Shown: positions 5,403 to 16,473 of the stretch, piece after piece
Layout of the letters: every line of letters begins with the position of its first letter
Numbering within the stretch: the first letter of the stretch is position 1
Made by a program: the position numbers and the translations under genes
Notes under the pieces: model-generated
Database searches by the model: none
Seen by the model: the letters and a program-made list of their open reading frames with translations, nothing else
Told to the model about the DNA's origin: nothing
Source: a bacterium
GTDB taxonomy: Bacteria; Vulcanimicrobiota; Xenobia; Xenobiales; JADMJV01
Direction: 5' to 3'
NCBI GenBank assembly: GCA_030149525.1
Contig: JASBRJ010000087.1
Location: 1 to 34,132, forward strand
Length of the DNA: 34,132 nt

Positions 5403-5729
5403 ATGACGGCTCAAAACACAATGTCTAAAGACAAAAGCGAGAAAAACGCCAAAGCGCGCCGCGCTAAGAAGAAAGACTCTCCAAGTGAGTCGAAGGGATC
5501 CGGTTCTGTGCGAGCCGAGCGAGGCGGAGCTACCGTATCCGGTCCCAAGGGCAGTATTCCCGAGCGCATTGTTAAGTTTTGGAAAGGCGTTGTCGCCGAA
5601 ACTAAGCGCGTCTCCTGGCCCTCCAAACCCGAACTAGTTGCCGGTACCATCACCACGGTCTTTATCTTGATGATCTTCGCAGGATGGCTCGGAGGGCTCG
5701 ACCTCCTCCTGAGACGACTCCTCGGGTAA
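5403..5729 (+). CDS. secE: Preprotein translocase subunit SecE
   Basis: Essential small membrane subunit that clamps SecY in the Sec translocon. 108 residues: a long Lys/Ser/Arg-rich cytoplasmic N-terminus, then the amphipathic signature IVKFWKGVVAETKRVSWPSK and a single transmembrane helix near the C-terminus (AGTITTVFILMIFAGW). The ATG at 5403 is chosen because AGGGAG (5388-5393) lies 9 bases upstream; ATG codons at 5367 and 5421 in the same frame have poorer sites. nusG follows after 26 bases, the universal secE-nusG pairing. The rpmG gene that usually precedes secE in this gene order is not present. 5285-5402 shows no convincing promoter. Confidence 0.93.
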   Translation: MTAQNTMSKDKSEKNAKARRAKKKDSPSESKGSGSVRAERGGATVSGPKGSIPERIVKFWKGVVAETKRVSWPSKPELVAGTITTVFILMIFAGWLGGLDLLLRRLLG

Positions 5730-5755
5730 TAGTGCATGAGAGTTCGGAGAAAGTA

Positions 5756-6400
5756 ATGTCTGTGCAAAACGAAAACGAAGTTGAAAACACTGAGGCCGGT
5801 GACGCCACCGAAGGTCCCGCCACCGAAGCGGCGACCCAGGAAATGGCTGCCGCTGCCGAGGTGGAGAAAGACCCACGCACCGCTTGGTACGTTATCCATA
5901 CCTATTCAGGTTATGAAAATAAGGTGCGCGACGATATTCTTCGCCGCGTAAAGTCCATGAACATGGTCGACAAAATCTTCCAGGTTCTGGTGCCTACCGA
6001 AGAAGAGTTAGAGTTTAAAGACGGTAAGAAGAAAACCGTCCAGCGTCGCGTCTACCCCGGTTACGTTTTCGTTGAGATGATTATGACCGACGACTCCTGG
6101 TACGTTGTTCGAAACACCCGCGGTGTCACCGGCTTCGTATCTCCTGGCCAAAAGCCCGTACCCCTCCCTCCGGATGAGGTGAAGCGGATTAAGCAAATCA
6201 TGGGTATGGAAGCGCCGACACGAGTCAAGCTCCATCTGGAGATCGGCCAGCAAATTCGCGTTACCCACGGACCGTTCCAAGACTTCCACGGTGTGGTTGA
6301 CGAGGTGACTCCGGATAAAGAAAAGGTCCGAGTGCTTATCAGTATTTTCGGACGGGAAACTCCGGTTGAACTCGACTTCGGTCAAGTAGAAAAACTTTAA
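5756..6400 (+). CDS. nusG: Transcription termination/antitermination protein NusG
   Basis: Binds RNA polymerase clamp and modulates pausing, Rho action and coupling to translation. 214 residues: an acidic Ala/Glu-rich extension of about 40 residues, the NGN domain (TAWYVIHTYSGYENKVRDDI through VPTEEELEFKDGKKKTVQRRVYPGYVFVEM and NTRGVTGFVSPG), and a C-terminal KOW domain (VTHGPFQDFHGVVDEVTPDK). The ATG at 5756 has GGAGA 5 bases upstream; an in-frame ATG at 5684 lies within secE and would add a low-complexity piece, so it is not preferred. rplK follows after 73 bases. Confidence 0.95.
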   Translation: MSVQNENEVENTEAGDATEGPATEAATQEMAAAAEVEKDPRTAWYVIHTYSGYENKVRDDILRRVKSMNMVDKIFQVLVPTEEELEFKDGKKKTVQRRVYPGYVFVEMIMTDDSWYVVRNTRGVTGFVSPGQKPVPLPPDEVKRIKQIMGMEAPTRVKLHLEIGQQIRVTHGPFQDFHGVVDEVTPDKEKVRVLISIFGRETPVELDFGQVEKL

Positions 6401-6406
6401 AAAACC

Positions 6407-6441
6407 AAAAGAGAGGGCCTGATGCAAAGGGCGCTCTTTTT
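6407..6441 (+). terminator. Weak hairpin with T-tract between nusG and rplK (possible attenuator)
   Basis: AAAAGAG (6407-6413) pairs with CTCTTTT (6434-6440) around an imperfect GC-rich top, followed by T and G. Partial termination here would set rplK-rplA below or apart from secE-nusG. No separate promoter is evident in the gap. Confidence 0.4.
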
Positions 6442-6473
6442 GGATTTCTAGAAACTTATCGAAAGGAAAAAAG

Positions 6474-6899
6474 ATGGCTAAGAAAGTTAAAGCCCTTATC
6501 AAGCTGCAGGTTCCCGCAGGGAAAGCAAATCCGGCTCCCCCGGTAGGTCCCGCACTCGGTCAACACGGGGTCAATATCATGGACTTCGTGAAGCAGTACA
6601 ATGAGCGTACCGCTGACCAGATGGGCATGATCGTACCCGTAGAGATCACGGTTTACGACGATCGTTCTTTTACTTTCATCACCAAGACGCCCCCGGCTAA
6701 GACCCTTCTTCTCAAAGAAACCGGTCTGCCTAAGGGATCCGGTGAGCCCAACACCCGTAAGGTGGGCAAAGTTACCAAAGAACAGATCCGTCGAGTCGCC
6801 GAGATCAAAATGCCCGACCTTAACGCCAACGACATCGATATGGCTATGCGCATTATCGAAGGTACCGCGCGTAGCATGGGTCTGGTCGTAACCGAGTAA
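6474..6899 (+). CDS. rplK: 50S ribosomal protein L11
   Basis: Binds the GTPase-associated centre of 23S rRNA and helps factor-dependent GTP hydrolysis. 141 residues, the standard length. Signatures: [29 protein letters not shown] at the N-terminus (proline-rich hinge of the thiostrepton-binding domain), TPPAKTLL, and the C-terminal rRNA-binding domain with [19 protein letters not shown] and GTARSMG. Ribosome site GAAAGGAAAA a few bases before the ATG. Precedes rplA by 82 bases, the conserved L11 operon order. Confidence 0.97.
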
Positions 6900-6911
6900 T
6901 CGGATTACATG

Positions 6912-6940
6912 ACCGTCGAGCATGGCTCGATGATTACGGT
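6912..6940 (+). promoter_or_regulatory. Candidate L1-binding or other regulatory hairpin before rplA
   Basis: ACCGT (6912-6916) pairs with ACGGT (6936-6940) and CGAGC (6917-6921) with GCTCG (6925-6929); the two helices are separated only on the 3' side by ATGATT, an asymmetric internal loop. Ribosomal protein L1 is known to repress its operon by binding a helix-asymmetric-loop-helix in mRNA, and the position fits, but the match is structural inference only. Confidence 0.35.
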
Positions 6941-6981
6941 GGAAGGTGCTGAGAAGCCCCGTTCGACCACTGGAGGTAAAA

Positions 6982-7689
6982 ATGGGAAAGAAAGATAAAA
7001 AGTATAAAGCTGCTCTCGAGCAGTTCAACCGCGAAGAGGCCTACGACATCTCCGATGCCGTAGAGACCGTTTGCAAGATTGCATTCGCAAAATTCGACGA
7101 GACCGTTGAGATTCACGTCAAACTGGGGATCGACCCTCGTAAAAGTGATCAAACGGTTCGAGGAACCACAGTTCTACCACACGGAACCGGTAAAACTCCT
7201 AAGGTGATCGTCTTCACCAAGGGCGACAAGATTAAGGCTGCCGAAGAAGCCGGCGCTGATATGGCCGGAGCTGAAGAGCTGATTCAAAAGGTCAAAGACG
7301 GGTTTTCCGACTTTGATATCGCCGTTGCCTCTCCTGATATGATGGGGGAAATCGGTAAAAACCTCGGTCGGATCCTTGGTCCCAAAATGCCGAACCCGCG
7401 TGCAGGTACCGTCGCTCCTGACCCCGCCAAAGCTGTATCGGAGCTGAAGTCCGGTAAGATCCAGTATCGTGCGGACAAGACCGGTATCGTTCACTGCCCT
7501 GTCGGTAAAGTGAGCTTCGGAACCGAGAAGATCGTCGAAAACCTCAAGGTCCTCCTTGAAGCGGTTGTCAAAGCCAAGCCATCTTCTTCTAAAGGTGTGT
7601 ACCTGAGAAGTATTGCCTTGACATCAACCATGGGTCCTTCTGTCAAGGTGGACACCCAAAAAGCCGCGGCCTTCGCCGGCGTCAAGTAA
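6982..7689 (+). CDS. rplA: 50S ribosomal protein L1
   Basis: Forms the mobile L1 stalk of the large subunit and usually also autoregulates its operon. 235 residues, typical length. Recognisable stretches: GIDPRKSDQTVRGTTVLPHGTG, GRILGPKMPNPRAGTV, VSELKSGKIQYRADKTGIVHCPVGK and the C-terminal TSTMGPSVKVD. The ATG at 6982 has GGAGG 5 bases upstream; an ATG at 6946 in frame adds a 12-residue tail that is not part of the family and lacks a site. Instead of rplJ and rplL, a transporter gene follows. Confidence 0.96.
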   Translation: MGKKDKKYKAALEQFNREEAYDISDAVETVCKIAFAKFDETVEIHVKLGIDPRKSDQTVRGTTVLPHGTGKTPKVIVFTKGDKIKAAEEAGADMAGAEELIQKVKDGFSDFDIAVASPDMMGEIGKNLGRILGPKMPNPRAGTVAPDPAKAVSELKSGKIQYRADKTGIVHCPVGKVSFGTEKIVENLKVLLEAVVKAKPSSSKGVYLRSIALTSTMGPSVKVDTQKAAAFAGVK

Positions 7690-7710
7690 AGTATACAGGT
7701 CGTCAACGAC

Positions 7711-9228
7711 TTGAAGAGCTCCCTCTCAAGAATTCCATTCTGGTTGGGGCTCTTTTTGTTTTTTATCGTCCTGATGGCCCCCACTCCATCAGGTATGTCG
7801 CTTTTAGCTCAGCGCACCGCCGCCGTGGCTATTTTGATGGCGTCCTGGTGGATAGGGGAGGCCCTTCCCATTCCTTGCACGGCTCTCTTACCACTGGTTC
7901 TTTTTCCCATCTTTGGCGTTTTGCCCGCCTCCGAGGTCTCCAAAGATTACGGGAATCAGAACATTTTTCTTTTTATGGGCGGTCTCTTTATGGCTATGGC
8001 CATGCAGAGATGGAATCTTCACAGGCGGATAGCCCTCACCATCATGACCCGAGTTCCGCGCAAACCGGCCGCCATTGTAGCGGGGTTTATGGTGGCGACA
8101 GCCGGGATTTCCATGTGGATTTCCGACACGGCGACCGTGATGCTCATGATGCCCATCGGGGTTGCCGTCATTATGCAGGTGGAAGGGCTCAACGCCGATG
8201 AAGAGCCCCAGCCTTCACCGTTCGGAGCGGCGCTGATGTTGGGTATAGCCTACGCCGGAGTCATCGGTGGAATCGGCACTCTCGTGGGCACTCCCCCCAA
8301 TCTTGTCTTTGCCGGAACCTACGAAACCCTGGTTCCTAACGGTCAAACAATCGGATTTGCCCGCTGGATGATTGTGGGCACCTCGGTGACCGTTCTCATG
8401 CTTCCAGTGACCTGGTTCTATCTGACTCGTTTCGCCTTTAAGCTCGACTCAGGCGATGAGGGTGAGATGCTCGACCTTGAGGTTCTCAAGTCGGAAAAAG
8501 AGAAACTCGGCCCCATGAAGACTGGGGAGAAGATCTCATTTGCGGTCTTTCTCTCGGCGGCTGCTCTCTGGTTGACTCGGGGAGAATTTCACAACGGAAA
8601 GATGGCCTCTCCCGGCTGGGGTGGGCTTTTAGAGAATCCTGAGATGGTCTCCGATAGTACGGTCTCCATCGCGGCTGCTCTTCTTCTTTTCGTTCTAAGG
8701 GCAAAGAATCCCAACGGAGAGGGAGTCGGTCCGGTGTTGGACTGGGATTGGGCCAAGCGAATCCCTTGGAGAGTTCTGTTGCTGTTCGGCGGGGGCTTTG
8801 CTCTGGCTCACGCCTTTCAAGAATCCGGATTGTCGGAGTGGGTGGGAACTCGAATTACCTTTCTGTCTTCGCTTCCACCTGTGGCCATGATAGCCGTGGT
8901 CTGTTTTCTGATGACTTTCATGACAGAGGTGACCAGTAATACCGCTACAACGACGGTTCTGATGCCGGTTTTGGCCACAGCCGGTCAAAGTATGGGGATC
9001 GATCCGCTTTTGCTTATGATGCCGGCCGCTATGTCGGCCTCCTGCGCTTTCATGCTTCCTGTGGCAACACCCGGTAACGCGATTGTTTTCGGCAGCGGCT
9101 TCCTCTCATTGAAACAGATGGCCCGGGCCGGTTTTGTGCTGAACATCATCGGGAGCATTATCATCACCATCGTCATGGTTGTGGTCGCTGTACCGGTTTT
9201 TGAGTTGAGTCTCAGCGGTGTGAACTAG
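7711..9228 (+). CDS. DASS (SLC13) family sodium:anion symporter
   Basis: Inner-membrane transporter of the divalent anion:sodium symporter family, which carries dicarboxylates, citrate or sulfate. 505 residues, many hydrophobic segments. The inverted-repeat signatures are both present: a first SDT (residues 138-140, in MWISDTATVMLMMP) and a second SNT (409-411, in VTSNTATTTVLMP), plus GTPPNLVF (193-200) and PIPCTALLPLVLFP near residue 55. The first SNT motif reads SDT, as in some eukaryotic and bacterial relatives. The start is uncertain: TTG at 7711 includes the first membrane helix but lies in a terminator stem and has no strong ribosome site; ATG at 7774 would cut into that helix. Substrate cannot be told from sequence. 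Convergent with the receiver gene 8 bases away. Confidence 0.88.
   Translation: MKSSLSRIPFWLGLFLFFIVLMAPTPSGMSLLAQRTAAVAILMASWWIGEALPIPCTALLPLVLFPIFGVLPASEVSKDYGNQNIFLFMGGLFMAMAMQRWNLHRRIALTIMTRVPRKPAAIVAGFMVATAGISMWISDTATVMLMMPIGVAVIMQVEGLNADEEPQPSPFGAALMLGIAYAGVIGGIGTLVGTPPNLVFAGTYETLVPNGQTIGFARWMIVGTSVTVLMLPVTWFYLTRFAFKLDSGDEGEMLDLEVLKSEKEKLGPMKTGEKISFAVFLSAAALWLTRGEFHNGKMASPGWGGLLENPEMVSDSTVSIAAALLLFVLRAKNPNGEGVGPVLDWDWAKRIPWRVLLLFGGGFALAHAFQESGLSEWVGTRITFLSSLPPVAMIAVVCFLMTFMTEVTSNTATTTVLMPVLATAGQSMGIDPLLLMMPAAMSASCAFMLPVATPGNAIVFGSGFLSLKQMARAGFVLNIIGSIIITIVMVVVAVPVFELSLSGVN
7714..7764 (+). terminator. Terminator of the ribosomal protein operon, overlapping the next gene
   Basis: AAGAGCTCC (7714-7722) pairs with GGGGCTCTT (7746-7754; one G-T pair), and inside it AGAAT (7729-7733) pairs with ATTCT (7737-7741). 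The stem is followed by TTTTTG and TTTTTT. The whole structure lies within the first 18 codons of the following transporter frame. Confidence 0.7.
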
Positions 9229-9236
9229 TGGTTTGT

Positions 9237-9668
9237 TCACTGACTGAGCACTTTTCGGAGGACCCTTTGAACATCAGAAACCATAAACGGCTTTCTCAAC
9301 TGCCCACTGAATCCTAGAACGCTATAATTTCGATCTTCGGAATAATCGCTTGCCAAGATCGCTCGCGTTTTCGGGTTAAGCTTTTTCAACTCGCGGAGAA
9401 CCTCTAGTCCGCCCATGTCTCCAGGCGCTGTAAGGTCCAGGATGACGGCATCAAAAGGCTCGTCACTTTCTTGGGCATGACGAAACCGAGCCAAAGTTTC
9501 TACCCCGGAGGTTGAAACTTCACTTTCGTATCCCAGTTTGTCGAGCAGGCGGGCAGTCACGCGGAGTATCATAGGCTCGTCATCGAGAACCAGAATGCGT
9601 CTAGAGGGAGGGCCGTAGTCTTGGGTTCTCCTGTCATTACAAGCTTCTATTTTGTTGCTGATCTGCAA
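9237..9668 (-). CDS. Stand-alone response-regulator receiver protein
   Basis: Single CheY-like receiver domain with no output domain, 143 residues from the TTG at 9668. Phosphorylation residues are all present: Asp29-Asp30 (VLDDEP), phosphoacceptor Asp78 (VILDLTAPGDMGG), Ser107 (ILASDYSED) and Lys126 (LRKPF). Sequence style (PGDMGGLEVLREL, LASDYSED) resembles the receiver domains at the ends of hybrid PAS histidine kinases. The TTG start is preferred for its GTGGAGGT ribosome site 5 bases upstream; an ATG at 9713 has GGAAGG only 2 bases away. No kinase gene lies nearby, so its partner is unknown. It is divergent from the efflux operon, whose control region lies about 170 bases away. Confidence 0.85.
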   Translation of the reverse strand: MQISNKIEACNDRRTQDYGPPSRRILVLDDEPMILRVTARLLDKLGYESEVSTSGVETLARFRHAQESDEPFDAVILDLTAPGDMGGLEVLRELKKLNPKTRAILASDYSEDRNYSVLGFSGQLRKPFMVSDVQRVLRKVLSQ

Positions 9669-9835
9669 ATGTGACCTCCACGTCATCTGCTTGTCTGCCT
9701 TGAGAACTCTCATGGCCTTCCAGCGACTTGCAGCAATACCTGACCCATTTATGATTCAATCAGTTTGGGGAAGAGTCGTCTATGGTTTGAAACTACCTCG
9801 CAAAGCCGCGTTCTACTTATCCCGGAGGATAATTC

Positions 9836-9869
9836 TTTACAATTTTACAGAATTGTGTAAGATTGTAAA
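9836..9869 (+). promoter_or_regulatory. Large palindromic operator of the RND efflux operon
   Basis: A 34-base near-perfect palindrome centred at 9852.5: left arm TTTACAATTTTACAGAA, right arm TTGTGTAAGATTGTAAA, with 15 of 17 positions complementary. It overlaps plausible promoter boxes (TTTACA 9836-9841, 16-base spacer, TAAGAT 9858-9863). A related 34-base element sits at the start of the tetR gene at 14882-14915 (first 15 bases 14/15 identical), so this is very likely the TetR operator. Confidence 0.75.
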
Positions 9870-9897
9870 AATGCAAACGAGACCCAGGAGAGACAGC

Positions 9898-11238
9898 ATG
9901 AAAAACAGACGGAGAGGAATCTCTGCTTGGGCAGTTGTGGTTGGGTCGATTATCTTCTGCTTGGCCGCCTACTTTGTGGTGAGATGGCAGACTAGGGGAC
10001 CCGAGTCGGAGACAAAACAGGAGGTTCAACCCGCTGTAACGGTGGGAGTGGAGACCTTGAAGTCCGAGTCTTTGAGAAGGATCCGTGAAATGACCGGAAC
10101 TATCAAAGCGAAGAATCCCATAGCTGTGAGTGCCGAATCCAACGGGTTGAGAGTCTCCGACATCCTGGTCGAGGAGGGGGACAGTGTAGCCTCTGGTCAG
10201 GTATTGGCTCGATTAGACCCTTCCAGTTTAGCTGCCCGGAGGCGGCAACTGGAGGCTCGACTCCAACAACAACGAGCCTCACTCTCAAAGACAGTCTCGC
10301 CAAATCGACCGCTTGAGACGGCTCAGCTCAGGTCTTCATTGGAGGAGGCTCTGACTCAGATAACGGTGGAAAAAGCGAATCTTCAGGTCGCTCAGGCGGC
10401 TCTCCAGGACGCCGCAGCGAATCTGGAGCGATACCAGGCTCTCTATAAGAGTGGAGCGATCCCTAAGACGGAAGCAGAAAGCCGACGACTGGAGTATCTG
10501 CGCCAGAAAGGGAATGTCGAGGTCGCAAAAGATCGCGTCGCAGCTGCTCGGGCGGGCGCCCGGCAGGCTGAGCAACGACTTCAATTGGCCAATCAGGGTG
10601 GTCGCACCGAAGACGTGACTATCGCCCAGGCCCAGATCGATGAGTTACAGGGTCAGCTGGAAGAACTACAGATCCAAATTGACCAGGCCACTATTCGCGC
10701 CCCCAGAGCGGGTCTGGTGAGCCGGAAGAATGTCGAGTTGGGACAGGTTGTCACTCCTGGGACCGTCCTTTTCGAGATGGTCCAGAACGGAGAACTCGAG
10801 TTGCGGGCAACCGTTCCGGCCACCGACATCGGTCAAATCGAGATAGGCCAGGCGGCTACCGTCACAAGCGGGAGCCTCAAAGCCGAGGGTCGGGTGTGGA
10901 AAATCTCACCTCAGGTGGATGAGGAGACCCGCAACGCCGAGGTGCGAATCGAGCTTCCCAACTCCAGCGGTTTTCGCCCGGGGATGTTTGCCGATGCGCG
11001 CATCCCCCTGGAATTTCCACCCGCTCCTCTGGCGCCGCAAAAGGCTATTTTTGGGGAGAGCCCCGATTATTACGTCTTCCTTCTCCAAGAGGATCAGACG
11101 GTGGAGAAAGCCTCCGTCTCATTGGGTCCGAAGAGCGAAGGTAAAGTGGCTATCGTCAAAGGCGTGAGGCCAGGCCAAAAACTTGTGGTCGAAGGCGGCG
11201 GGTTTCTCCGTGACGGTGACAAGGTGGCCTTGCCTTGA
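9898..11238 (+). CDS. RND efflux pump periplasmic adaptor (HlyD/AcrA family)
   Basis: Membrane fusion protein linking an inner-membrane RND pump to an outer-membrane channel. 446 residues: N-terminal anchor helix (about residues 8-27), lipoyl half-motif IAVSAESNGLRVSDILVEEGDSV, a long coiled-coil hairpin (roughly 95-255, rich in Gln/Glu/Ala/Arg), second lipoyl half TIRAPRAGLVSRKNVELGQVV, then beta-barrel and membrane-proximal domains. ATG 9898 is chosen for its AGGAGAG site at 5 bases; ATG 9871 lacks one, and the frame remains open upstream through the operator. It overlaps the pump gene by 4 bases. The operator at 9836-9869 controls it. No TolC-like gene is in the window. Confidence 0.9.
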   Translation: MKNRRRGISAWAVVVGSIIFCLAAYFVVRWQTRGPESETKQEVQPAVTVGVETLKSESLRRIREMTGTIKAKNPIAVSAESNGLRVSDILVEEGDSVASGQVLARLDPSSLAARRRQLEARLQQQRASLSKTVSPNRPLETAQLRSSLEEALTQITVEKANLQVAQAALQDAAANLERYQALYKSGAIPKTEAESRRLEYLRQKGNVEVAKDRVAAARAGARQAEQRLQLANQGGRTEDVTIAQAQIDELQGQLEELQIQIDQATIRAPRAGLVSRKNVELGQVVTPGTVLFEMVQNGELELRATVPATDIGQIEIGQAATVTSGSLKAEGRVWKISPQVDEETRNAEVRIELPNSSGFRPGMFADARIPLEFPPAPLAPQKAIFGESPDYYVFLLQEDQTVEKASVSLGPKSEGKVAIVKGVRPGQKLVVEGGGFLRDGDKVALP

Positions 11239-14200
11239 AAATTTCAGCTTGGGCCATTCGCAATCCCATCCCCCCGATTGTTCTCTTCGTTCTTCTTACC
11301 CTGGGTGGCCTCTTTAGTTTTGGAGCGCTGGGAATCGATGAGAACCCGGATGTAGATATTCCCATCGTCACGGTGTCGGTCGCTCAACTCGGTGCGGCCC
11401 CCTCCGAGATGGAGGTTCAGATCACCCGACGAGTTGAGGACGCGGTGGCCGGTGTCGGCAATGTCGAACACATCACCTCCGTTGTGAGTGAGGGCCTCTC
11501 CGTCACGAATATAGAGTTTGCACTAGGAGTCGACACAGATCGTGCTGTCAACGATGTGCGCGATGCGGTGACCCGTATTCGTCAGGACTTGCCCGCAAGT
11601 ATCACAGAGCCCAACGTCAGTCGATTGGATTTCATAGGCGGACCTTTCGCCACTTACACGGTTTCTAATCCGAACTTGTCGGTTGAGCAATTGAGTTGGT
11701 TGGTCGACAATGATATCGCCCGCCAGCTTCTCTCGGTCCAAGGAATCGGCCAGGTTCAGCGTTCAGGGGGAGTGGAGAGGCAGATCACCGTCTTTTTAGA
11801 CCGGAGTCGGATCGAAGGGGTGGGCCTCACCGTCGACGAGGTGAATACTCAACTCCGTCAGTCGAATCTCGACCTCCCCGGTGGAAAGGGTGAGTTAGGC
11901 GAGAGTCAGCAATCTATCCGAACTCTAGGTTCACGAAAGACGCTGGAAGAACTAAAAAAGATCCCTATCACCTTACCGAATCGTCGCGGCACCGTGAATT
12001 TGTCCAGTCTTGCCGAGGTGGAGGATTCCACGGCCGAGCCAACCCAAATGGCTCTCCTCAACGGTCGTCCGGTCGTTGCTTTCTCCTTGGTGCGAAGTAC
12101 CGGCTCCAGCATGGTGGAAGCTCAGGAGGAGGCCGAGAAAAAGATCGAGGAGCTTCTGAGCTCAAAGCAACTCCCCCCGAACACATCGATCGAGCGAGTG
12201 AGGACTCGCGCTCGCTTTGTGGAGGAGTCCTATTTCGCGAGTATTGAACATCTTTTCTTGGGCGCTCTTCTGGCCATGATTGTGATTTGGGTCGCCCTGA
12301 AAGACTTTCGGGCGGCCGCCATCTCTGCCACGGCGATGCCGCTTTCCATGATCCCCACTTTTCTCGTCATGAAAGCCCTCGGCTTCACTCTCAACAATAT
12401 GAGTCTTCTCGGACTGGCGCTCGTGATCGGGATCCTGGTCGACGACGCTATCGTGGAAGTGGAGAACATCGTTCGCCATATTCAGATGGGCAAGACTCCT
12501 TGGAAAGCCTCGCTTGAGGCTGCCGATGAGATTGGTCTGGCTGTGGTGGGTACCACCTTCAGTATCGTGGCGGTTTTTGTCCCAGTGGCCTTTATGGGTG
12601 GAATACCGGGTCAGTTCTTCAAGCAGTTCGGTATCACCGTTTCCGTCGCCGTGCTCTTCTCGCTTCTGGTGGCTCGATTGATCACGCCCATGATGTGCGC
12701 TTACTTTCTTAAGCGCCCGCCTCATGACGAGGAGGATAGCTTCTTCATGCGGCTGTACGACCGCGCCTTGCGTTGGTCTTTGAGTCATCGTTTGGCAACC
12801 TCCGTGATGGCTCTGCTCTTCTTCATTTTTGGGCTAAGTCTATTTCCCTTAATGCCTCGAAGCTTGATCTCCCAGGTCGATAGGGGAGAGGTGACCCTCT
12901 CTGTTGAGCTTGAGCCGGGGACTCCTCTGGAGCGCACCACCGAGGTTGCGAGAACATTGTCGGAACTGTTGGGCAAAGAGGATGGAGTGTCGGCCGTCTT
13001 CGCCTCCATCGGAACGACCTCTTCCGGCGGAGCAGTCGGGGCCGCCAACGCGGCGGGAGTGAACAAGGCTACTCTTTACGGCGTGCTCAAGCCTCGAAGT
13101 GAGCGGGAACTTTCTCAACAAGAAATCGAAAAGAAGCTGCGTCCTCTGACTCAAACCATACCTGGGGCTAGAGCCCGATTCGGTTCCCTGGAAGGGTTCT
13201 CAGGAGGGATTACGATTCTGTTCGCCTCCCAAAATCCGGAGGCCTTAACCGACTTTTCCGAAGAGATCACAGCCGCTATGCGCAATATGTCGATTCTTTA
13301 CGACGTGAAATCGTCAGCCGCTCTGGCCCGCCCCGAACTCCTGGTGAAGCCTGATCCTGAGCGGGCAGCTCAACTCGGTGTTACGGTAGCCTCTCTGGCT
13401 CGGACCGCGCAACTGGCGACTATTGGCGATCAAGAGCAGAATCTGGCCAAGTTTGATCTCACCGATCGGCAGGTGGATATCAGAGTTCAGTTAGCTCCTG
13501 AGGCTCGCACGGATCTTGAGCAGATCGAAATGGTAAAGGTGCCCAGCAATCTTGGTCGCCCGATTGCGCTCCGAAACGTGGCCAAGGTCGAGCAGGGTTT
13601 TGGGCCTTCCCAAATCGACAGATACGACCGCCAACGACAGGTGAAGATCGAGGCCAATCTGGCCGAAGGGGTGACTCTAGGACAGGCCCTTGAGGCCATT
13701 CGCGCTCTCCCTGAATATAAGCAGATGCCGCCCTCGGTGTCGGAGTCTCCCACAGGTGATGTGGAAATCCAGGAGGATGTCTTCTCCGGTTTCTTCTTCG
13801 CCATGGGATCGGCGGTCGTCTTGATATACGCCGTCCTGGTTCTGCTCTATAGCGATTTCTTCCACCCCCTTACCATCATGTTGAGCTTGCCGCTGTCCAT
13901 CGGAGGGGCTTTGGTTGCCCTGGTCGTGACTCAAGAGCCTCTCGGACTGTACGCTCTTATCGGAATCGTCATGTTGATGGGCCTGGCCATCAAAAACTCC
14001 ATTCTTCTAGTCGATTACTGTTTGCAGGAAGAGGAGAAGGGGGTGCCTCGAGAGGAGGCGGTTCGGCAGTCTGGTCGTGCCCGCATGCGCCCTATCCTGA
14101 TGACGACGGTGGCCATGATTGCCGGCATGTTGCCTATCGCGCTGGGAATTGGAGCAGGAGCAGAGATTCGGAAAGCCATGGCCATTGCCGTGATCGGAGG

Positions 14201-14324
14201 TCTCGTGACTTCGACACTTCTTACGCTGCTGGTCGTGCCGGTTGTCCACACCTTCATTGATGATCTTGAGAAGTTTGTCTTTCGATTTGGTCTTAACACC
14301 CTCAAGGCGAGGGAGGATGACTGA
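11235..14324 (+). CDS. RND efflux transporter, HAE-1/AcrB-like
   Basis: Proton-driven inner-membrane pump, 1029 residues, the standard size for the hydrophobe/amphiphile efflux family. N-terminal helix ISAWAIRNPIPPIVLFVLL, two large periplasmic loops (about 32-335 and 550-850), and two blocks of membrane helices. The proton-relay Asp pair is Asp403-Asp404 in TM4 (VIGILVDDAIVEVEN); the C-terminal block holds RMRPILMTTVAMIAGMLP. Start is TTG at 11235, overlapping the adaptor stop by 4 bases, a sign of translational coupling. Its last 23 bases overlap the convergent tetR gene. Substrate unknown; AcrB/CusA-type metal Met clusters were not looked for in detail. Confidence 0.94.
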   Translation: MKISAWAIRNPIPPIVLFVLLTLGGLFSFGALGIDENPDVDIPIVTVSVAQLGAAPSEMEVQITRRVEDAVAGVGNVEHITSVVSEGLSVTNIEFALGVDTDRAVNDVRDAVTRIRQDLPASITEPNVSRLDFIGGPFATYTVSNPNLSVEQLSWLVDNDIARQLLSVQGIGQVQRSGGVERQITVFLDRSRIEGVGLTVDEVNTQLRQSNLDLPGGKGELGESQQSIRTLGSRKTLEELKKIPITLPNRRGTVNLSSLAEVEDSTAEPTQMALLNGRPVVAFSLVRSTGSSMVEAQEEAEKKIEELLSSKQLPPNTSIERVRTRARFVEESYFASIEHLFLGALLAMIVIWVALKDFRAAAISATAMPLSMIPTFLVMKALGFTLNNMSLLGLALVIGILVDDAIVEVENIVRHIQMGKTPWKASLEAADEIGLAVVGTTFSIVAVFVPVAFMGGIPGQFFKQFGITVSVAVLFSLLVARLITPMMCAYFLKRPPHDEEDSFFMRLYDRALRWSLSHRLATSVMALLFFIFGLSLFPLMPRSLISQVDRGEVTLSVELEPGTPLERTTEVARTLSELLGKEDGVSAVFASIGTTSSGGAVGAANAAGVNKATLYGVLKPRSERELSQQEIEKKLRPLTQTIPGARARFGSLEGFSGGITILFASQNPEALTDFSEEITAAMRNMSILYDVKSSAALARPELLVKPDPERAAQLGVTVASLARTAQLATIGDQEQNLAKFDLTDRQVDIRVQLAPEARTDLEQIEMVKVPSNLGRPIALRNVAKVEQGFGPSQIDRYDRQRQVKIEANLAEGVTLGQALEAIRALPEYKQMPPSVSESPTGDVEIQEDVFSGFFFAMGSAVVLIYAVLVLLYSDFFHPLTIMLSLPLSIGGALVALVVTQEPLGLYALIGIVMLMGLAIKNSILLVDYCLQEEEKGVPREEAVRQSGRARMRPILMTTVAMIAGMLPIALGIGAGAEIRKAMAIAVIGGLVTSTLLTLLVVPVVHTFIDDLEKFVFRFGLNTLKAREDD

Positions 14325-14880
14325 GGGCAAGGCAGGTCAGGTTCACCAGGCCCTTGATGCGAATTTGCAGTTCTTCGATACTCTCCGATTTGTCTTTGAT
14401 ACCGTGGACGGAATTCAGAAGGACACGGGCCAGCACAGCGTGGGACATGCCCGTTTGTTGAAGGCGGGCTTGATCACAACGTTCCAGAAGCTTGGTGAGC
14501 GAGGAATGAAATCGTTCGGAGGCAGAGAGCAAGGATTCTCGGATCCTGTCGTCTTGTAGCTCGAAAAGGTCTTTGTAGAACGTTGTTCCGCTCATCTGTT
14601 CATAAGGTCGGAGAACGGCGATTTCAAAGAAAATCATAAGGATTTCAAAGAGGTCGTCTTTTTTCTGGGTCCGTTGTCGGATTTCGGCAAGGAGCTTGTC
14701 GGCGTAGTAGTCCATCACGGCCGCAAAAATCTGTTCCTTACCCTCATACATGGCATAGAGAGTTGGACGAGAGACATGCGATTCGCGGGCGATATCCACT
14801 AAGGTCGTTCGCCGAAAACCAAAATGGAGGAAGAGTTTCTGTGCCGACTCCAGGACTCTTTGGCGCTTCGTCTTGCCCAT
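14302..14880 (-). CDS. TetR/AcrR family transcriptional repressor
   Basis: 192-residue repressor with an N-terminal TetR helix-turn-helix: RVLESAQKLFLHFGFRRTTLVDIARESHVSRPTLYAMYEGKEQIF (residues 8-52), then an all-helical ligand/dimer domain. ATG at 14880 gives the classical TetR start. An upstream TTG at 14955 in frame would add 25 residues. There is no ribosome site before 14880, and TTGACA (14910-14915 on the minus strand) with TAAAAA 16 bases later suggests a nearly leaderless transcript. The operator-like element 14882-14915 covers these boxes, so autorepression is expected. Convergent with the pump gene; the shared operator type at 9836 makes it the likely local repressor of that operon. 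Confidence 0.9.
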   Translation of the reverse strand: MGKTKRQRVLESAQKLFLHFGFRRTTLVDIARESHVSRPTLYAMYEGKEQIFAAVMDYYADKLLAEIRQRTQKKDDLFEILMIFFEIAVLRPYEQMSGTTFYKDLFELQDDRIRESLLSASERFHSSLTKLLERCDQARLQQTGMSHAVLARVLLNSVHGIKDKSESIEELQIRIKGLVNLTCLALSHPPSP

Positions 14881-14881
14881 A

Positions 14882-14915
14882 TTTACATTTTTACAGCAAG
14901 TGAAAGAAATGTCAA
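14882..14915 (-). promoter_or_regulatory. tetR promoter/operator
   Basis: TTTACATTTTTACAG at 14882-14896 matches TTTACAATTTTACAG of the pump operator at 14 of 15 positions. The outer arms TTTACATTT / AAATGTCAA are 8/9 complementary and span 34 bases like the other site, while the inner part is poorly symmetric, suggesting weaker binding. On the minus strand it includes TTGACA and, 16 bases on, TAAAAA. Confidence 0.6.
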
Positions 14916-16437: not shown

Positions 16438-16473
16438 AAAAAAGTCCGGTGATTTCTCACCGGACTTTTTTTT
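16438..16473. terminator. Bidirectional terminator between the 83-residue gene and hemQ
   Basis: AGTCCGGTGA (16443-16452) / TCACCGGACT (16457-16466), loop TTTC, flanked by six A on the left and eight T on the right, so it can stop transcripts from both sides. Confidence 0.93.

Follow-up and report, generated by a model that had tools for sequence, protein, structure and literature searches.

A TetR-family regulator and two candidate operators at opposite ends of a convergent MFP-RND efflux locus

Does the TetR-family regulator encoded beside an RND efflux operon control that operon, and also its own gene, when the two promoters lie 5 kb apart and the genes converge? The question is raised by a locus in the window, i.e., the whole 34,132-nucleotide stretch of DNA that was analysed, where an operon for a membrane fusion protein (MFP) and an RND permease meets a tetR gene tail to tail (Table 1). 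The permease gene has a TTG start and overlaps the MFP stop, and the presence of an ACR_tran permease and an RND_mfp adaptor in one operon places the system among the RND pumps. No outer-membrane channel gene was found at the locus, which is thus not a tripartite RND operon, and the best match elsewhere in the genome to the channel protein of the relatives lies next to a different RND gene, on contig C197. The original prediction had described the module as self-contained; this description has to be dropped, since the channel gene, present in the sister genus's pump operons, is lacking here.

The regulator matches solved structures of TetR-type regulators, including NalC, CmeR, TtgR, AcrR, and QacR, and it scores below the cut-offs of the NCBIfam equivalogs for AcrR (26.5 versus 271 bits), MtrR (38 versus 280 bits), and the acrEF regulator (32.1 versus 274 bits). 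A single-sequence structure model had a mean pLDDT of 56, too poor for use. The 3' ends of tetR and the RND gene overlap by 23 bp (14302 to 14324), and no terminator-like site is listed in this overlap. TetR regulators have been classed as type I when divergent from their target, as type II when transcribed in the same direction, and in a third class, global or of any orientation (PMC6790063); the convergent layout is neither type I nor type II, and type III is the closest class. On the other side of the pump, a divergent response-regulator gene (9237 to 9713, minus strand) encodes only a receiver domain according to Pfam.

Table 1. Genes, candidate operators, and promoter-like hexamer pairs of the efflux module (window coordinates)
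Feature	Position	Strand	Basis or description
RND periplasmic adaptor (MFP), 446 aa	9898-11238	+	TIGR01730, 204 bits vs cut-off 94.9
RND permease, 1029 aa	11235-14324	+	ACR_tran, E 2e-240
TetR-family regulator, 192 aa	14302-14880	-	TetR_N PF00440, E 1e-10, 41.7 bits vs cut-off 24
Putative pump operator	9836-9869	none	34-bp palindrome, arms 15/17, four TTTACA-like half-sites
Extended pump cluster	9836-9877	none	five half-sites, including a third 8-bp minus-strand repeat
tetR operator-like site	14882-14915	none	TTTACA half-sites, two of them perfect; degenerate opposite arm (10/17)
Pump promoter-like pair	9844-9872	+	TTTACA-17-AAAAAT, TG before; consensus match; inside operator
Alternative pump pair	9836-9863	+	TTTACA-16-TAAGAT; consensus match; overlaps first pair
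Promoter-like pair facing the response-regulator gene	9842-9869	-	TTTACA-16-TAAAAT; consensus match
tetR promoter-like pair	14887-14915	-	TTGACA-17-AAAAAT, TG before; consensus match

Upstream of the pump operon, we confirmed the predicted palindrome, TTTACAATTTTACAGAATTGTGTAAGATTGTAAA, in which 15 of the 17 arm positions are complementary and each arm holds two TTTACA-like half-sites 8 bp apart. When the local 65 bp were shuffled 20,000 times with dinucleotides preserved, a palindrome of this quality never arose, and a genome scan with the full 34-bp pattern, allowing up to three mismatches, returned no match beyond the site itself. A third minus-strand repeat (TTTGCATT-TTTACAAT-CTTACACA) extends the cluster to 9877, so that the 34 bp are not necessarily the footprint of the site. 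The half-site spacings in the module are N6, N14, and N22, and the motif is better described as built from a TTTACA hexamer in 8-bp steps. The claim of an operator motif defined directly by the two sites stands as far as the shared, unique motif is concerned, and has to be revised as regards its unit and extent.

At the other end of the module, the site TTTACATTTTTACAGCAAGTGAAAGAAATGTCAA lies one base upstream of the tetR start codon and keeps the 34-bp register of the pump site, with an arm symmetry of 10/17. Its two perfect half-sites lie on one side; the far side holds TGTCAA, and the middle holds TGAAAG, shifted out of register by one base. Over its first 15 bases, the site agrees with that of the pump at 14 positions, a level not attained in any of 1,000 shuffles of the sequence upstream of tetR, and the right arm is weak, its 10/17 having a P value of about 0.009 in the fixed register. 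Thus, the weaker tetR site anticipated at a convergent promoter 5 kb away, with the same spacing and a left half matching at 14/15, is indeed present.

The shared 15-mer, TTTACAWTTTTACAG, matches the 8.27-Mb genome exactly at two places, namely the two ends of the module, and the suggested search for further sites yielded none elsewhere at one mismatch. Matches with two mismatches are at background level, their number being similar to that of a reversed-pattern control; the ten that fall outside the module were rejected as candidates, each of them being overlapped by an open frame of 120 codons or more on either strand and none (0/10) having a palindromic partner. Within the window, TTTACANNTTTACA occurs four times at one mismatch or less, with 0.04 occurrences expected, and three of these belong to the pump site and one to the tetR site. 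Its uniqueness in the genome argues against the 15-mer being a general promoter element, and the confinement of the sites to the module fits a local regulator.

Both sites overlap promoter-like hexamer pairs, which were called from consensus match only. The -10-like hexamer of tetR ends six bases ahead of the ATG, and for this reason the tetR messenger may be leaderless. In the pump promoter, the shared 15-mer falls on the -35 side, but in the tetR promoter it covers the -10 region, so that the likeness is not readily accounted for by a common promoter function alone. A confounding factor has nevertheless to be weighed: read in the orientation of tetR, the pump palindrome is also promoter-like on its minus strand, so that promoter features could account for part of the similarity.

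A tetR gene beside an MFP-RND operon, together with a genome-unique motif in both promoters, is what an autoregulated local repressor predicts. We therefore consider it likely that the TetR/AcrR-type protein represses both the pump operon and its own gene through the two predicted operators and is released by a ligand. The repressor would bind the clustered TTTACA-type half-sites upstream of the pump, possibly as far as 9877, cover the -35 and -10 hexamers, and exclude RNA polymerase from the MFP-RND operon. By binding the weaker site that covers the tetR promoter, it would probably also regulate its own gene, and a small molecule, presumably a pump substrate, would be expected to release it. 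We infer from the present data the binding and ligand release, as well as the relative strength of the two sites and the number of dimers bound; in particular, the forecast of strong repression at the pump and mild repression at tetR would follow from the difference in symmetry. What the original prediction said of an autoregulated repressor thus keeps its main support, namely, the position of the TetR gene and a unique motif over both promoter-like pairs, and loses the self-contained module and the 34-bp unit. The weak opposite arm at the tetR site and the half-site spacings, which differ from the N12 of TtgR, speak against the repressor model. Control of this sort is of a kind already known, i.e., ordinary local control of an efflux pump by a TetR-type repressor, and the locus provides a testable candidate operator for a TetR protein for which no close relative was found.

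Other readings of the same sites can be considered. The low symmetry at tetR and the coincidence of the shared segment with the tetR -10 region would suit a reading in which the pump palindrome alone is an operator and the 15-mer near tetR is a look-alike promoter segment, tetR not being autoregulated; we regard this as unlikely, because a common promoter element should recur, whereas the 8.27 Mb hold no further site at up to one mismatch, and because the right arm at tetR beats chance in the fixed register. The convergent position of tetR, which is a geometry of the third TetR class (PMC6790063), would instead be in agreement with a regulator encoded elsewhere that binds both sites while the adjacent TetR acts on other targets. 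This appears very improbable, given that sites restricted to the module point to a local regulator; moreover, the neighbouring response regulator showed nothing but its receiver domain.

Compatible with the local-repressor model, of which it would be an extension, is the idea that the palindrome at the pump serves as a bidirectional operator-promoter from which the response-regulator gene is transcribed as well, so that three units would be controlled. The palindrome does contain a minus-strand promoter-like pair matching at 10/12 positions, but a palindrome with a plus-strand promoter yields minus-strand matches for free, and this pair may be such a by-product; furthermore, the palindrome lies about 120 bp from the start of the longest response-regulator open reading frame. 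We consider this extension rather doubtful. It is also possible to hypothesize, with a similarly low expectation, that the convergent, 3'-overlapping layout is itself regulatory, with derepressed pump transcription running antisense into tetR, lowering the repressor and creating a switch, and that the five half-sites phased by 8 bp form an operator that binds several dimers cooperatively.

The local-repressor model can be compared with characterized systems. TtgR, the TetR-family repressor of the ttgABC RND pump of Pseudomonas putida, has an operator, located upstream of ttgABC, that contains TTTACA-N12-TGTAAG (PMC4538802); the hexamers TTTACA and TGTAAG are common to both systems, whereas the N12 spacing is not found among the N6, N14, and N22 of the module, and TtgR itself is only weakly similar to the window's TetR, mainly in the N-terminal part (E of about 1e-5 to 1e-4). 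SmeT, of the TetR family as well, binds a 28-bp pseudopalindrome and, in blocking RNA polymerase there, represses both the smeDEF pump of Stenotrophomonas maltophilia and smeT itself (PMC3128119). Such local control of both pump and regulator is likewise proposed here, but different from the 28-bp region in the smeDEF and smeT promoter regions, the present locus has two separate sites 5 kb apart flanking convergent genes. Two native operators with promoter hexamers in the same region are known for EilR, the TetR-family repressor of the eilA pump in Enterobacter lignolyticus (PMC6127294), where, unlike here, they share one intergenic region and follow a 24-bp consensus.

The source genome is the only member of its genus in the set of relatives. 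No TetR orthologue was found in 98 relatives, 15 genomes of the order, the genome contigs, or plasmids, the searches returning at best distant TetR proteins. The window motif was absent, at up to two mismatches, from the stretches fetched for the relatives; as the searches yielded no TetR orthologue, this absence carries no weight against the sites. Synteny in the stretches fetched for four relatives was limited, among the matched window genes, to nusG-rplK-rplA. In the window, these three genes are followed (5684 to 9228) by a DASS-family transporter gene (7711 to 9228), not by rplJ.

Homologous pumps do exist in genomes of the sister genus and in others of the class, with identities of about 59% for the RND protein and 35 to 42% for the MFP (35 to 40% in the sister genus). 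In the sister genus (G001 to G005), the pump is encoded in a co-directional tetR-MFP-RND-OMF operon that, different from the window's module, includes the channel gene and another type of TetR, with a CecR C-terminal domain (CecR_C) in the two proteins scanned, and the window's genome yielded no match above 40% to the CecR-type N terminus. Abutting the start of the CecR-type tetR, a palindrome unlike that of the window, TTTCAAACG(C/T)TAGTTTGAA, is conserved in five genomes (L070 to L073 and L075) and is likely the operator of the CecR-type regulator. Thus, the related pumps found within a single bacterial family are accompanied by TetR regulators, and by candidate operators, that are unrelated to one another. 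The window's permease is 58 to 59% identical to the permeases of all these relatives, while these share 65 to 69% across families; being about equally distant from all of them, it is probably not a simple vertical orthologue. For comparison, a ribosomal protein places the genome nearest its own family (68 to 70%) versus 65% for the next family, with some members of the order reaching 66%.

A scan of the genome contigs with the RND permease gave only distant permeases (26 to 30% identity). Among plasmids, the best full-length match to the TetR is from Tropicibacter oceani (27%, E 5e-13), where it is the regulator of a tetR-MFP-RND unit, which is consistent with a role of the window's TetR at an RND pump. 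This unit resembles the window's module in having MFP and RND genes beside tetR and in lacking a channel gene, and differs from it in being co-directional and in having no comparable 34-bp palindrome upstream. The closest plasmid permease, from Roseomonas (49%), has a divergent TetR with a different palindrome.

As regards the window itself, a second 15/17 palindrome (16438 to 16471) occurs within CAAAAAAGTCCGGTGATTTCTCACCGGACTTTTTTTTG and looks like a bidirectional terminator between genes. In the ranking of RND homologues, a second paralogue of the family, with an identity of about 58% to the window's RND protein, was set aside as a candidate; in the sister genus (L122 to L125), it directly follows two ABC-type exporter-like genes and has neither a TetR nor an MFP match next to it.
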